A DNA stretch of 32,443 bases from Campylobacterales bacterium (lineage in GTDB: Bacteria > Campylobacterota > Campylobacteria > Campylobacterales > QNZT01): the NCBI GenBank assembly GCA_027023405.1, contig JALVVN010000028.1, positions 61,142 to 93,584 on the forward strand. The letters run 5' to 3'. Below, piece by piece: positions 4,647 through 14,784 of the stretch. A model generated the notes under the pieces. That model saw nothing but the letters and a program-made list of their open reading frames with translations. It was not told the origin of the DNA and did not search any database. Within the stretch, counting starts at the first letter, position 1. Each line of letters opens with the position of its first letter. The position numbers were made by a program, and so were the translations under genes.

Positions 4647-5195
4647 CTATCGATTTTGGATCACTATGCGCTTCCCCCAAAGCTCAAGTGTGATAGAGGG
4701 AAGTGCTTTGTTGATCGTCAAAAAGAGTGGATAATAGGTCTCACCTTCACGGCAGTTATTGCGCTTGATACTCAAAGTATGGTTGTCATCGTTGCTGATT
4801 GTAAGATTGCAATCTTGTTGCATGGTTACGGGATAAAATAGGAGATTATCTTTTGTAAAATCAATATCGTTTTGTTGCTCCATCCAAGAGAGGATCGTTG
4901 TGCGCTCTTTTGTCGGGAGCATCGCTTGTGCGCTTGCGTTGACTTCACTCAAAAAGTGTGCCCAATCTTCAGTAGTGGTGAGGAGAATTGTATCGCCGTA
5001 AAGTTTGGTAAAATCGATTGTTTGATTGTTGATAGGAAGCTTGATAGCAAAGATAGAGGCTTTATATTTTGACTCATTTGAAATTGCGTTGGCGTTATTG
5101 GCTTCTTCTGCCTCCTTGGTGGTGGTCTCCTGTGGGTTATTCATCACCCCGCAACCGGCTATGAGTAGTGCCAAGGTTAAAACTATCTTGTGTAT
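4647..5195 (-). CDS. Small lipoprotein, probably initiated at a non-standard AUA codon
   Basis: The mature protein (about 170 residues) has no recognised domain. The only ATG/GTG/TTG start available is TTG at 5174. It would give MALLIAGC, a lipobox with no basic n-region and too short for export. Reading in frame from ATA at 5195 gives M-HKIVLTLALLIAGC, a normal lipoprotein signal with Cys15 as the acylated residue. AGGAAAAGGAG lies at 5210-5200, 4 nt before the ATA, and a perfect TATAAT at 5227-5222 would place the mRNA start near 5215. The frame is closed by a TAG upstream. The alternative explanation is a base error at 5193, where the true codon would be ATG. The product is predicted to sit in a membrane facing the periplasm. 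Confidence 0.7.
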   Translation of the reverse strand: MHKIVLTLALLIAGCGVMNNPQETTTKEAEEANNANAISNESKYKASIFAIKLPINNQTIDFTKLYGDTILLTTTEDWAHFLSEVNASAQAMLPTKERTTILSWMEQQNDIDFTKDNLLFYPVTMQQDCNLTISNDDNHTLSIKRNNCREGETYYPLFLTINKALPSITLELWGKRIVIQNR

Positions 5196-5199
5196 CGAT

Positions 5200-5227
5200 C
5201 TCCTTTTCCTGTATGGGATCTATTATA
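5200..5227 (-). promoter_or_regulatory. -10 box and ribosome binding site of the lipoprotein gene
   Basis: On the minus strand a consensus TATAAT (5227-5222) is followed by AGGAAAAGGAG (5210-5200). The -35 region is poor, as is common for sigma70 promoters in Campylobacterota. The distances fit a start at 5195, not at the TTG at 5174, which would be about 25 nt from the ribosome binding site. Confidence 0.55.
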
Positions 5228-5307
5228 GCGCAAAAAAATGGCGAAAAAGTGTCTTCAAATCTGAGACAACCCATTTTTTCAACACTTTTTTTCAGTACAA
5301 TAGGCGT

Positions 5308-5988
5308 ATGAGAGATCCAAATCGATATACACTTCTTTTTGTCGAAGATGAAGCAATGATCCGTAAAATAGCGGTGGCGTTTTTGCAAGATCGCTTCAAG
5401 GAGATCTATGAGGCATCGGATGGAATAGAGGCTTATAATATCTATATGGAGAAACGACCCGATCTTATCATCACCGATATTCAGATGCCACGATTAAGCG
5501 GTTTGGGTCTGTGTGAGAAGATTCGCAGAGAGGATGAACAGACGCCTATCATCATTTTGACCGCCTATTCGCATACCGAGTATCTACTCAAAGCTACGGA
5601 GTTAAACCTCATCAAATACCTAATTAAACCCATAGAGGAGCAAGCGCTTGATGATGCGATCAACAAGGCGATTGAAAAGATCGAATCAAAAAGTCAAAGT
5701 GTCGTCCATCTTGGGAGCGGATACTATTTTGATGCATTTAACCATCTCTTGATCAAAGAGGAGCAGATCTCGCATCTGTCTGAGTTGCAAAATAGGTTGT
5801 TGGAGATATTGGTACGAAACGGTGGCAATGTCGTCTCTTACGGAAAACTTGAGAGTGAGATCTATCGTGGCGAATATATGAGCAAAGATGCTATTAGAAG
5901 TTTGGTGAGAGATATGCGCAAAATGAGCTACAAATGTATCATCGAAAATATCTCAAAAGTGGGTTACAGGGTCAATCTCGATGGATAG
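5308..5988 (+). CDS. OmpR/PhoB-type response regulator
   Basis: The start is taken at ATG 5308 because the in-frame sequence upstream is antisense to the lipoprotein gene and lacks regulator homology. The 226-residue protein has a receiver domain with acidic pocket Glu13/Asp14 (FVEDE), phosphoacceptor Asp57 (DLIITDIQMP), Thr85 and Lys107 (KYLIKP). It is followed by a winged-helix DNA-binding domain (about residues 130-226, ending SKVGYRVNLDG). A -10-like TACAAT at 5296-5301 sits so close to the ATG that the transcript may be leaderless or nearly so. The next gene overlaps by 8 nt and encodes what looks like a shortened sensor, so the usual kinase partner is not intact here. Confidence 0.85.
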   Translation: MRDPNRYTLLFVEDEAMIRKIAVAFLQDRFKEIYEASDGIEAYNIYMEKRPDLIITDIQMPRLSGLGLCEKIRREDEQTPIIILTAYSHTEYLLKATELNLIKYLIKPIEEQALDDAINKAIEKIESKSQSVVHLGSGYYFDAFNHLLIKEEQISHLSELQNRLLEILVRNGGNVVSYGKLESEIYRGEYMSKDAIRSLVRDMRKMSYKCIIENISKVGYRVNLDG

Positions 5989-6469
5989 GGTGCTGAAAAT
6001 CAAACTCCTCATTGTGGCAATCATCTTTGCCGTCTCGGCGTATTTTTATCAAACACTCTATTTTCAAGCTGATAGCGCGATCTACACTTACGATACCAAA
6101 CTCCTTTTTATCACCGCACTCTGTTTTGGGATCATCTTTAGTGCTGCGCTTTACAACCTTGCACTTGCGTGGTATATGCGGAGTAGAGAACATCTATTTT
6201 ACGCTTTAGTCTATCGTGACAGCGATCAATACTTCAACCCCTACTATGGAATGGATAATAGTTTCGTCTTTCAAGTCAATGATGAGACGCAAGTGCGATT
6301 TATTGCATCATTTGATCGAGATGAGGATGAGACTTCAAATCGGGGATATACGATTACATTTAGTAAAAGCTGGAAAGATAGATATCTTATCCATCTCTCA
6401 GGCGGTACGATGAAGACAGCGGAGTTTGACGAGAGTATCGCGAAGCTTTCACTCTATATGTTCTTGTAG
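5981..6469 (+). CDS. Two-span membrane protein, possibly a shortened 7TMR-DISM-type sensor
   Basis: The 162-residue protein overlaps the response regulator by 8 nt. It has a membrane span at about residues 7-25 and a second at 42-66. The second (FSAALYNLALAWYMRSREH, then LFYALV) resembles the first membrane helix of 7TMR-DISM sensor kinases, whose helices carry the pattern YNL...RS.YL.Y. After residue ~77 the similarity stops, and a unique hydrophilic 85-residue tail follows (YRDSDQYFNPYYGMDNS onward). There is no HisKA or ATPase domain. It is either a small membrane partner of the regulator or the product of an internal deletion in a kinase gene. The family assignment is tentative. Confidence 0.6.
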   Translation: MDRVLKIKLLIVAIIFAVSAYFYQTLYFQADSAIYTYDTKLLFITALCFGIIFSAALYNLALAWYMRSREHLFYALVYRDSDQYFNPYYGMDNSFVFQVNDETQVRFIASFDRDEDETSNRGYTITFSKSWKDRYLIHLSGGTMKTAEFDESIAKLSLYMFL

Positions 6470-6483
6470 TCTTCAGGCATTTT

Positions 6484-6508
6484 GGGGCGACACTCTTTTT
6501 TGTGCCCC
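6484..6508 (+). terminator. Hairpin terminator after the regulator/sensor pair
   Basis: GGGGC(G)ACA pairs with TGTGCCCC around a short T-rich loop, with one bulged G. It lies 15 nt after the stop at 6469 and is followed by AT-rich sequence (TATTTATT). An 8-bp palindrome (TTAAATAT/ATATTTAA, 6515-6532) just after it probably belongs to the next promoter. Confidence 0.6.
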
Positions 6509-6546
6509 TATTTATTAAATATAAATATTTAAGATGGAGAATGGTA

Positions 6547-7770
6547 ATGAAAAATATTTTGAAGATATCAGCAGTAGCGGCGGTGATGCTAGCATTGAGT
6601 GCTTGTGGCGATGGCAGTAATCATGATAAAAGTAATTTAAGTGTAAGTGCCGGTAGTGATGCTAAGCCTACCCTTAGAGCTAGTACTACACAAACTGCAC
6701 ATGTTCAAATCAATCAGCTATCACAAACTGCACCAAGTGCACAATACAAACAGAGTAGCGAGCTGTCACTAAAACAGATAGGTGCTTTAGATGTAAGTTC
6801 AGCATGCGATGATCAGACGGAAGTAACAGCGGAAGATATGGCACTCTCAAATGATGGGAATACCATTTTCCTTGCTGACGGATCGGCAGGTCTGAAGATC
6901 ATTGATGTGAGTAATCCCTCGGCTCCAAAGCTCCTTGCTAGTCTCGATGATGCTTGTGACAAGGGAGAAAACAAAGGCGGTTTTGGTAGAAGAATCACGA
7001 TCTCGCCGGACGGCAATACTATCTATTTGGCAGATGGATTGGCAGGTTTGAAAATTATTGATGTGAGCAATCCGGCTTGTCCTTACTATCTTGGAAAATT
7101 GGATACAAAGGGATTTTCACACGGTATTACCGTATCTGCAGATAATAGAACCGTTTATATAGCCGATAACGGTGAAGATGGCGGTAGACCCGGCTTAAGG
7201 GTTATCGATGTGAGCAATCCCTATTGTCCACATTTGATTGCTCAAAGAGATGAGCAGTGGGCAACACAAGTAGCACTCTCACCTGATAACAGCAAACTGT
7301 TTATTACCGATAAAAAAGCGGGGATTTTAGTTGTCGATGCGACGGCGTGTGATATAGAGTCGGCAACATTAGGCAAGTATAAAGTGACAGATAAAGGTAT
7401 CTCGGCGGATATCGTGATATCCAAAGATGGTACTAAAGCGTATGTTGCCAATAAAAAACCCGGCATAAAAATTTTAGATGTCAGTGACGCATCTGCTCCA
7501 AAACTCATCTCAAAATTTGACGCAGACGGCATGACAGGTAAAAGTATCGCTAAAAGCATTGCACTCTCACCGGACGGAAGCAAACTTTATGTTGCCAACA
7601 GAAAAACAGGTGTGCAGGTCGTAGATGTCAGCGATGCTTCATCGCCAAAACTGCTAGCATCCGCTTCAACATCGGGTATAGCAGAAGATGTGATGCTCTC
7701 TAAAGATGGCAATACTCTTTATGTAGCAGACGGCAAAGCGGGAATAAAAATCTTTCGTATTGTGCAGTAA
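6547..7770 (+). CDS. LVIVD-repeat beta-propeller lipoprotein
   Basis: The start at ATG 6547 is chosen because GGAG at 6536-6539 gives a 7-nt spacer, and because MKNILKISAVAAVMLALSACG is then a clean lipoprotein signal (lipobox LSAC). ATG 6541 and the earlier ATG at 6502 are worse placed. The ~407-residue protein carries about seven LVIVD-type repeats, for example GLKIIDVSNPSAPKLLASL, GLRVIDVSNPYCPHLIAQ and GVQVVDVSDASSPKLLAS. Most are preceded by blade elements such as LSPDGNTIYLADG. The repeats should close into a propeller at the cell surface or in the periplasm. LVIVD proteins are mostly of unknown function. The gene stands alone between two terminators. Confidence 0.85.
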   Translation: MKNILKISAVAAVMLALSACGDGSNHDKSNLSVSAGSDAKPTLRASTTQTAHVQINQLSQTAPSAQYKQSSELSLKQIGALDVSSACDDQTEVTAEDMALSNDGNTIFLADGSAGLKIIDVSNPSAPKLLASLDDACDKGENKGGFGRRITISPDGNTIYLADGLAGLKIIDVSNPACPYYLGKLDTKGFSHGITVSADNRTVYIADNGEDGGRPGLRVIDVSNPYCPHLIAQRDEQWATQVALSPDNSKLFITDKKAGILVVDATACDIESATLGKYKVTDKGISADIVISKDGTKAYVANKKPGIKILDVSDASAPKLISKFDADGMTGKSIAKSIALSPDGSKLYVANRKTGVQVVDVSDASSPKLLASASTSGIAEDVMLSKDGNTLYVADGKAGIKIFRIVQ

Positions 7771-11930: not shown

Positions 11931-12911
11931 ATGAGAAAAGCACTTATCGTAGGTATTGATTATTATGAAAATGCTTCACCTCTCTTTGGCTGTGTCAATG
12001 ATTCATATGCAGTTAAAAGCGTACTAGAAAGGCATGGAGACGGCACTTTAAATTTTGATATTTTATATATACCAGTAACAAATGAATCTAAAAAAATTAC
12101 TCGTGGAGAATTAAAAGATAAAATAACTGAACTTTTTCGAGATGAATGTGATGTAGCACTATTCTATTTTTCAGGGCATGGATATGTTGAAAATAATGGT
12201 GGCTATTTAATCACTTCTGAGTGCAGTAGAGGAGATGACGGTTTGTCACTTGATGAAATATTAGTTATGGCAAACAAATCAAAAGCAAAAAATAAAATAA
12301 TCATATTGGATAGTTGCCATTCAGGTATAATGGGTGATATTTCTGCTATACCTAACCATGCATTGCTTACTGAAGGGATGACGATTTTGACAGCATCTAG
12401 TGAAGAGCAATATGCAGTGGAGGAAAATGGGAAAGGAGTTTTTACTGGATTGCTTGTAGATGCACTTAATGGATCAGCTTGTAATTTAGTTGGTGAAATA
12501 TCACCAGCGAGTGTATATGCGCATATAGACCAATCTCTAGGGTTATGGGAGCAAAGACCAATATTCAAAACGAATACGAAAAAGTTTGTTTCATTAAGAA
12601 AAGTAAAAGCACCGATCGAAATCGAGCTTCTATCAAAGATAACTGAATTTTTTGATGAACCAAGGAGCGTTTATTCCTTAAATCCTACTTTCGAACCCAA
12701 AAGAGATAATGCAGAACTCAAGAGAGAAATTCCTGACCCTATTGAAGAAAATGTTGAAAAATTCAGAATACTTCAGAAATATAATCGTGTTAATCTCGTT
12801 ATACCTATTGGTGAAGAGCATATGTACTATGCTGCAATGAATAGTACAGGTTGCAAATTGACACCTTTAGGAGAGCACTATTGGAATTTGGTAAAAAAGG
12901 GAAGATTATAA
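11931..12911 (+). CDS. Caspase-family (peptidase C14) effector protease
   Basis: Residues 1-215 form a caspase-like domain: MRKALIVGIDYY, the catalytic His in FYFSGHGYVE (His83) and the catalytic Cys in IIILDSCHSG (Cys129). Both dyad residues are intact. Residues ~220-326 form a separate C-terminal region with a linker (FDEPRSVYSLNPTFEPKRD) and a winged-helix-like end (CKLTPLGEHYWNLVKKGRL), a good candidate for signal sensing or autoinhibition. The position 3 nt after the TIR gene indicates the TIR-to-caspase logic of type IV Thoeris: the signal activates the protease and the cell dies or stops growing. The substrates are unknown, and the two upstream small proteins are candidates. Confidence 0.88.
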   Translation: MRKALIVGIDYYENASPLFGCVNDSYAVKSVLERHGDGTLNFDILYIPVTNESKKITRGELKDKITELFRDECDVALFYFSGHGYVENNGGYLITSECSRGDDGLSLDEILVMANKSKAKNKIIILDSCHSGIMGDISAIPNHALLTEGMTILTASSEEQYAVEENGKGVFTGLLVDALNGSACNLVGEISPASVYAHIDQSLGLWEQRPIFKTNTKKFVSLRKVKAPIEIELLSKITEFFDEPRSVYSLNPTFEPKRDNAELKREIPDPIEENVEKFRILQKYNRVNLVIPIGEEHMYYAAMNSTGCKLTPLGEHYWNLVKKGRL

Positions 12912-12924
12912 ATTAGATGCAATT

Positions 12925-12960
12925 ATAGTTTGAAATCTATAGGCTTTAGACTATATTTTT
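12925..12960 (+). promoter_or_regulatory. Intergenic signal between the caspase and mod genes
   Basis: TTGAAA (12930-12935), a 16-nt spacer and TATATT (12952-12957) could be the promoter of the restriction-modification operon. The same stretch can form a weak stem (ATAGTTT 12925-12931 with AGACTAT 12948-12954, one G-U pair) followed by ATTTTT, so it may also end the cassette transcript. AGGAG at 12984-12988 is the ribosome binding site of mod. Confidence 0.4.
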
Positions 12961-12996
12961 ACAATAAAAAAGTGACCATATATAGGAGAATGTTAT

Positions 12997-14784
12997 ATGC
13001 CAACCCTACAGTTCAAAGGAAAAAATATCATATGGAATCACCATATGAGTGTGCCGTACCATACGCTTGAGCGGGTGGAGAAGCTGGACTTTCAAGCGGA
13101 CAAAAGTAATGGCAATATCATTGTAGAGGGGGATAATCTTACGGCGCTTAAAGCGTTAGTGCCTCAATTTGGCGGTAGCGTCCAATGCATCTATATCGAT
13201 CCGCCGTATAATACCGGTAAAGAACACTGGGTATACAACGATGCCGCCAATTCTCCGATGATACAAGAGTGGCTTGGCAAAGAGGTTAGCAAAGAGGATC
13301 TTACAAAACATGACAAATGGCTTTGTATGATGACCCCAAGATTGAAGATGCTTTATCAATTGCTTCGTGAAGACGGTATAATTGTTATTCATATAGATGA
13401 GCATGAGATAAGCAAGCTCCGAGAACTAATGATAGAAATTTTCGGTGAAGAAAATGAGCTTGGTACGATTGTTTGGGACAAAGGTAATCCCAAAGGGGAT
13501 GTTGCAGCTATTGCGGTACAGCATGAATATATTGTTGTATTTGCTAAAAATATCGATATTTTCAAGGCTTCCAATGAACTCAAAAGACCAAAACGAAATG
13601 CAAAAAAAATATTGGAAAAAGCAGCAAAGCTGTTTAAGAAACTTGGGAAAGTAGATTTGCCGGAAGAACTAAAAGAGACCATAAAAAAATATAGCATCCC
13701 GGAATCATGTATTGAACAGTATAAGATTCCCTGCACTCTTGAAGATATCAATGAGCAGTTTCAATCTTGGCTTAAAAAGCAAGATTTTTCAAACGGTGAA
13801 AAGGCATACAAGTTTATCGACGAAAAAGGAAGAGTCTATCAGTCGGTGTCCATGGCTTGGCCCAATAAAAAGAGAGCACCGGATGAATATTTTGAACCTC
13901 TGATTCATCCAGTCACAAAAAAACCTTGTCCCGTACCGGATAGAGGCTGGAGGAACCCTCCTGAAACAATGCAAAAGCTTTTGGAACAAGGTCTTATTAT
14001 ATTTGGACAGGATGAAACAACACAACCCCGACGAAAATATTTACTTGAGGAAAATTTATACGAAAATATTCCTTCGATTCTCTTTTTTGGAGGAAGTGAT
14101 GACGCCTTGTTTAAAGAATTTGATTTGGAGTTTGACAATCCAAAACCATACAAATTTGCAAAAGAGCTATTGTCTTATTTCAGTAAAAAAGACTCGATCA
14201 TCCTCGACTCCTTCGCAGGCTCCGGCACCACCGCTCACGCCGTGATGGATCTGAACAAAGAAGACGGCGGCAACCGCCGTTATATCCTCGTACAGATGTC
14301 CGAAAACAGCGAAAAAGAGCCGGAGAAAAACATCTGCCGTGACATTACCCGGGAGCGGATCGTCAGAGCCATCGAGAAGTTTGGCTACGATTCGGGCTTT
14401 GAGTATCTGCGTGTGGGGCAGGCACTCGATGCCGAAACACTGCTAAGTGGTGAACTGCCCGAATATGAGACCTTTGCCAAGTATGTCTATTATCTGGCGA
14501 CCGGAGAGCATCCGGGGGCAGAGGCTCAGATCAACAAAGAGAGCTACTTTGTAGGCAGCAAGGGTAATGAAGATATCTACCTGATCTACACCGACGATAT
14601 GGATGCTTTGCAAAAACTCGCACTCAGCTATGAAAAAGCCGAGTCGATCCGCAAACGATCAGGGGCGAAAAAAGCGATCGTCTATGCGCCCGCCTGTTTC
14701 CTGGACGAAGAGGATCTCCAGGAGCTGAAGATCGAGTTTGTCTCTATCCCTTACAACCTCTTTGAGCGAAAGGCGGAAGTCTGA
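12997..14784 (+). CDS. Type III restriction-modification system methyltransferase (Mod)
   Basis: The 595-residue protein has the beta-class adenine methyltransferase order. The catalytic motif IV DPPYNTG lies at residues 68-74 and the SAM-binding motif I (DSFAGSGTT) at about residues 405-413, with a target-recognition region between them. It would methylate one strand of a short asymmetric site and, with Res, cut unmodified DNA. The stop overlaps the res start by 1 nt (TGATG). Base composition is uneven. The segment at about 13450-14190 (recognition region) is AT-rich with long A-runs, while the text from 14190 onward is markedly GC-richer, as in res. This suggests replacement of the recognition domain by recombination. 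Confidence 0.9.
   Translation: MPTLQFKGKNIIWNHHMSVPYHTLERVEKLDFQADKSNGNIIVEGDNLTALKALVPQFGGSVQCIYIDPPYNTGKEHWVYNDAANSPMIQEWLGKEVSKEDLTKHDKWLCMMTPRLKMLYQLLREDGIIVIHIDEHEISKLRELMIEIFGEENELGTIVWDKGNPKGDVAAIAVQHEYIVVFAKNIDIFKASNELKRPKRNAKKILEKAAKLFKKLGKVDLPEELKETIKKYSIPESCIEQYKIPCTLEDINEQFQSWLKKQDFSNGEKAYKFIDEKGRVYQSVSMAWPNKKRAPDEYFEPLIHPVTKKPCPVPDRGWRNPPETMQKLLEQGLIIFGQDETTQPRRKYLLEENLYENIPSILFFGGSDDALFKEFDLEFDNPKPYKFAKELLSYFSKKDSIILDSFAGSGTTAHAVMDLNKEDGGNRRYILVQMSENSEKEPEKNICRDITRERIVRAIEKFGYDSGFEYLRVGQALDAETLLSGELPEYETFAKYVYYLATGEHPGAEAQINKESYFVGSKGNEDIYLIYTDDMDALQKLALSYEKAESIRKRSGAKKAIVYAPACFLDEEDLQELKIEFVSIPYNLFERKAEV

Follow-up and report, generated by a model that had tools for sequence, protein, structure and literature searches.

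The ATA-opened lipoprotein frame and its start region

The window analysed here is a 32,443-nucleotide stretch of a Campylobacterales draft genome. It carries a predicted lipoprotein gene on the minus strand and, divergent from it, a response regulator gene followed by the remnant of a sensor histidine kinase gene. The features of the locus are listed below (positions are those of the window; G-numbers denote other genomes of the family).

4647..5195, minus strand: lipoprotein frame of 182 codons plus stop, opened by ATA (from the sequence and homologues)
5193..5195, minus strand: ATA at the start-codon position, where G002, G011 and G012 have ATG (from the homologue alignment)
5151..5153, minus strand: lipobox cysteine codon (L-I-A-G-C), codon 15 counted from ATA (from the sequence and homologues)
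5200..5206, minus strand: Shine-Dalgarno (SD) sequence AAAGGAG, with a 4-nt spacer to ATA
5222..5227, minus strand: putative -10 element TATAAT
5238..5285: a conserved intergenic motif around GTGnnGAAAAAATG in two facing copies, one at 5285-5272 and one, on the opposite strand, at 5238-5251; putative regulator binding sites
5308..5988, plus strand: intact OmpR-type response regulator, divergent from the lipoprotein (Pfam PF00072 and PF00486; 84% identical to G002)
5981..6208, plus strand: sensor histidine kinase remnant, first 76 codons only (from the match to the kinase of relatives)
6209..6469, plus strand: end of an unrelated gene, joined in frame to the kinase remnant; it corresponds to the C-terminus of a CxxCH-containing 409-aa protein (63% identity to G021)

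Downstream of the ATA the sequence reads HKIVLTLALLIAGC, and the frame then stays open to the stop codon ending at 4647. Translated from ATA, the N-terminus, (M)HKIVLTLALLIAG-C, has the marks of a type II signal peptide as judged by eye: a short charged n-region, a hydrophobic stretch and the lipobox cysteine. The initial annotation had proposed that the ATA at 5195 opens a lipoprotein signal, with an SD 4 nt ahead and TATAAT upstream, and that the usual start codons give no export signal. Re-reading of the minus strand confirmed the first claim. The second was also borne out. Ahead of the ATA, the lipoprotein frame is closed by TAA at 10 codons and TAG at 9 codons, and as the interval contains no ATG, GTG or TTG, an upstream canonical start in this frame is ruled out. 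The next in-frame candidate, TTG at 5174, is too near the cysteine, leaving only 7 residues ahead of it and no charged n-region, while GTG 5147 and ATG 5144 both lie behind the cysteine. No SD was found at any of the three by the criterion of the contig scan described below. Translation from one of these codons, yielding a shorter protein that lacks the lipoprotein signal, would use a standard start codon in the same frame; however, given the missing SD, the 7 residues left by the TTG and the position of the relatives' starts, in the ATA column or a few codons ahead of it, we regard it as highly improbable. If the ATA is real, gene finders restricted to ATG, GTG and TTG would call a wrong, signal-less protein here.

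Non-canonical start codons were scanned for in a 92,443-base part of the contig that holds the window (92 crudely predicted genes, about 4.5% of the genome). An ATA, ATT, ATC or CTG codon was accepted if it lay ahead of the first canonical start and was preceded by an SD of at least 6 nt at a distance of 2-9 nt. Three codons qualified, the lipoprotein ATA among them. The other two have a canonical start with its own SD within 20 codons, whereas the lipoprotein ATA has none. General AUA use was thus not seen in the 92.4-kb sample, about 4.5% of the genome. The aligned SD spacing of the lipoprotein ATA is 3 nt, as in 6 of the 62 SD-bearing starts of the scan. At about 12076-13035 on the minus strand of L044 there may be a second lipoprotein gene, the first canonical start of which is a TTG one codon after an ATC.

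Homologues of the lipoprotein and the ATG column

Seven of the 22 family genomes searched carry the lipoprotein, the one under study among them; the seven further copies are in G002, G011, G012, G017 (two), G019 and G021. A scan of genome contigs gave a single locus (L002), in which the sequence around the gene is the same as in G011:C183. No lipoprotein match was found in G001, the third genome of the genus, which is 57% complete. Identity to the window protein is 49.5% over 182 residues for G002, which belongs to the same genus, 41.4% for G011 and 38.9% for G012. In these three closest relatives found, ATG stands exactly in the ATA column and there is no indel up to the cysteine and the conserved CGVMNNP. 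In the four more distant copies (both from G017, and those from G019 and G021) the ATG lies three codons further up, counted from the cysteine. As we read them, all seven other copies start with ATG and none, same-genus G002 included, with a non-ATG codon; conservation of AUA among relatives, which would mark regulated use, is therefore absent (0/7). The lipobox G-C pair is invariant in 7/7 rows of the alignment, which comprises seven of the eight copies, the first G017 copy (L008) being left out.

The initial annotation had suggested that homologues be checked for ATG at 5195-5193, and ATG is what G002, G011 and G012 have there; no homologue starts in a different frame or at the TTG. By this alignment the predicted start site at the ATA column is right. 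The placement of the ATA also appears to exceed chance, as three distinct relatives have their ATG in precisely this column and no indel separates it from the cysteine. Judged from sequence only, the gene has AUA in the homologous start position and a suitably spaced SD, as an AUA-initiated gene should. Since ATG occupies the exact homologous column, the ATA is either a one-base derivative of ATG that arose in its own lineage or a sequence error.

The lipoprotein itself matched no Pfam family at E 0.001, and at E 0.1 only one weak viral-capsid match appeared, below the cut-off. The acidic lipoprotein LytA (NCBIfam NF058647) was considered and rejected, the score being 20.7 bits against a curated cut-off of 110 bits. 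An AlphaFold2 model built from the seven-sequence alignment had a mean pLDDT of 77.3, with residues 1-43 under 50. Searched with Foldseek, the model gave no PDB match at E 0.001 or better, and the best VIA-align Z score, 6.8, was to unrelated chains.

The regulator, the intergenic motif and the truncated kinase

In all eight copies, the window included, the lipoprotein gene adjoins an OmpR-type regulator gene; six of the seven others are arranged divergently and one, a G017 copy, in tandem. Seven intergenic sequences, without that of the G017 tandem copy, were aligned. A strict motif pattern was matched by the forward copy in 6/7, by the reverse copy in 5/7 and by both in 4/7, with the window among these four. 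The arrangement suggests that the regulator may bind the motif pair and so control both itself and the lipoprotein.

Behind the regulator, 7/7 other copies (G002:C47, G011:C183, G012:C143, twice G017:C11, G019:C19 and G021:C332) have a membrane histidine kinase of full length, its match running from residue 1 to 464-470 of 470. The G002 kinase has 7TMR-DISM, HisKA and HATPase_c domains, and the G002 regulator and kinase together match PF00072, PF00486, PF07695, PF00512 and PF02518, in which they resemble systems of an OmpR-type regulator with a 7TMR-DISM kinase. Unlike such two-component systems, the window retains only the N-terminal end of the kinase, and the associated lipoprotein belongs to no Pfam family at E 0.001.

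In the window the lipoprotein/regulator/kinase module lacks a full-length kinase, with about 76 codons of it present. The window kinase shares 79% identity with the G002 kinase as far as codon 76-78 and was matched over residues 1-78 only; past codon ~76 the frame continues unbroken into a stretch unrelated to the kinase and ends at 6469. Besides the window, G021 is the only one of the 22 genomes with a relative of this fused tail at E 0.01, and there it lies on a different contig from the G021 module. A search of the window's own genome revealed no other place encoding the rest of the kinase; its other kinase matches were at most 46% identical. Among the eight module copies, only the ATA-bearing one has a broken kinase, and this truncated partner kinase beside the ATA lipoprotein is new here.

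The kinase truncation and the ATA are both known from a single draft assembly of 44 contigs, for which a completeness of 99.93% and a contamination of 0 are listed. A sequencing or assembly error, with ATG as the real base, would agree with the draft state of the genome and with a one-base difference from homologues at a position expected to be conserved. However, the completeness and contamination figures speak for the assembly, and the separate, large kinase lesion in the same module, where a random error is not expected, makes a real mutation more plausible; an error is in our view unlikely.

Two further observations concern the same genome. At C19:21475-25630 lie two regulator-kinase pairs that converge on each other; their kinases belong to the same family and share 42-46% identity with that of G002, and a lipoprotein search of the genome revealed no copy beside them. 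Adjoining the kinase junction is an LVIVD beta-propeller gene (window 6502-7770, plus strand), for which a search of the 21 other family genomes at E 1e-40 gave no relative.

Initiation machinery and the standing of the ATA codon

The genome gave 35 tRNA matches, and ARAGORN was applied to the 30 loci obtained from them; of the five matches lacking a separate locus, two were covered by these loci and three were not. Three different tRNAs with CAU, including a normal initiator, and no UAU anticodon were identified. The initiator (L015) has the CAU anticodon, a C1-A72 mismatch and three G-C pairs in the anticodon stem; the mismatch and the three pairs we take to be the marks of an initiator tRNA. 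The gene for IF3, infC, is present with an open frame (L010, C24, reverse strand); its first canonical in-frame start is TTG, which is ordinary enough. An altered initiation machinery was rejected, given the normal CAU initiator, the lack of a UAU anticodon among the loci read and the presence of IF3. With a normal initiator tRNA and IF3, nothing points to special reading of AUA.

Relative-rate counts were obtained with two outgroups. Given as own branch versus the other, they were 16 vs 21 and 22 vs 21 for the lipoprotein, 11 vs 6 and 13 vs 11 for the regulator, and 6 vs 6 and 5 vs 3 for the kinase remnant. In these tests none of the three had a significant excess of changes on its own branch. 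Synonymous sites were saturated or nearly so, and dN/dS was therefore not used. As the kinase remnant is not accelerated, the kinase and ATA lesions are probably recent; the intact lipoprotein frame is weak evidence either way. The intact frame and the absence of a rate excess also fit a lipoprotein gene still in use.

The reading that we favour, at a probability of roughly 0.55, is a recent loss of the start codon, from ATG to ATA, in a lipoprotein/regulator/kinase module that is decaying. The ancestral ATG of the lipoprotein would have changed by one base, and a rearrangement would have removed most of the kinase gene, the module as a whole being on its way to loss. Kinase loss may have come first and eased the selective constraint on the lipoprotein, since a circuit deprived of its kinase would receive no input and could lose the lipoprotein start codon at little cost. 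The strong SD and the normal initiator tRNA would allow at most weak AUA initiation, so that little or none of the protein may be made. That the sole module with ATA is also the sole one with a broken kinase favours recent decay over purposeful down-tuning. Since the species is represented by one genome, the linked loss of ATG and kinase is a single case. Counting against decay, no damage is seen in the lipoprotein frame or the regulator, and the SD, -10 element and intergenic motif have likewise been preserved.

The initial annotation had taken the AUA to be used on purpose to lower expression. This was not supported: ATA occurs in 0/7 other copies, and a truncated partner kinase, seen in no genome but this one, suggests that the module is being lost. 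A related proposal is that the AUA is a functional start kept by selection and holding the lipoprotein at a low level, the strong SD partly compensating for the weak codon and IF3 discriminating. The 7-nt SD AAAGGAG at a spacing common to relatives, the intact frame and unaccelerated rates, and the conserved AUA starts with strong SDs of Staphylococcus aureus ccpN and infC in the available text of PMC13009471 all agree with it. However, ATA is missing even from same-genus G002, a strong SD also accompanies the ATG allele, G002 having AGGAAAGGAG ahead of its ATG, and the partner kinase is truncated; we find a selected AUA start doubtful. Less probable still is that the AUA acts as a compensatory volume control. 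Here a regulator without its kinase, unphosphorylated or subject to cross-talk, would mis-express the lipoprotein, and the change from ATG to ATA would have been selected to lower synthesis while the regulator and its sites were kept.

AUA starts are already on record for S. aureus (PMC13009471) and group A Streptococcus (PMC11238559), and the window ATA leaves knowledge of initiation codons unchanged. If real, start-codon loss in a decaying module shows a dedicated signalling module coming apart, with the kinase and the lipoprotein start lost while the regulator, promoter and reading frame still look intact. According to the available portion of the S. aureus report, non-canonical starts in reporters gave about 10% of AUG in poor medium, and the ccpN AUA up to 30% in rich medium, so that AUA with a strong context reaches some 10 to 30% of AUG (PMC13009471). 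As in ccpN and infC, where the SD is extended, a strong SD lies ahead of the window AUA; unlike the ccpN start, which is conserved between S. aureus and B. subtilis, the window AUA is found in one genome only (PMC13009471). The AUA start of S. aureus citZ is restricted to the NCTC 8325 lineage, with weak but measurable reporter initiation (PMC13009471). The window AUA is likewise limited to one lineage; unlike citZ, for which translation was measured, it is a predicted start, and its neighbouring partner gene is broken. A difference of ATG and ATA between lineages is also seen in group A Streptococcus, where emm4 ralp3 has ATA in place of the emm1 ATG and the authors suggest that little protein is made (PMC11238559). 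However, ralp3 is a different gene from a Gram-positive organism, and the available part of that report mentions no kinase lesion paired with the ATA.
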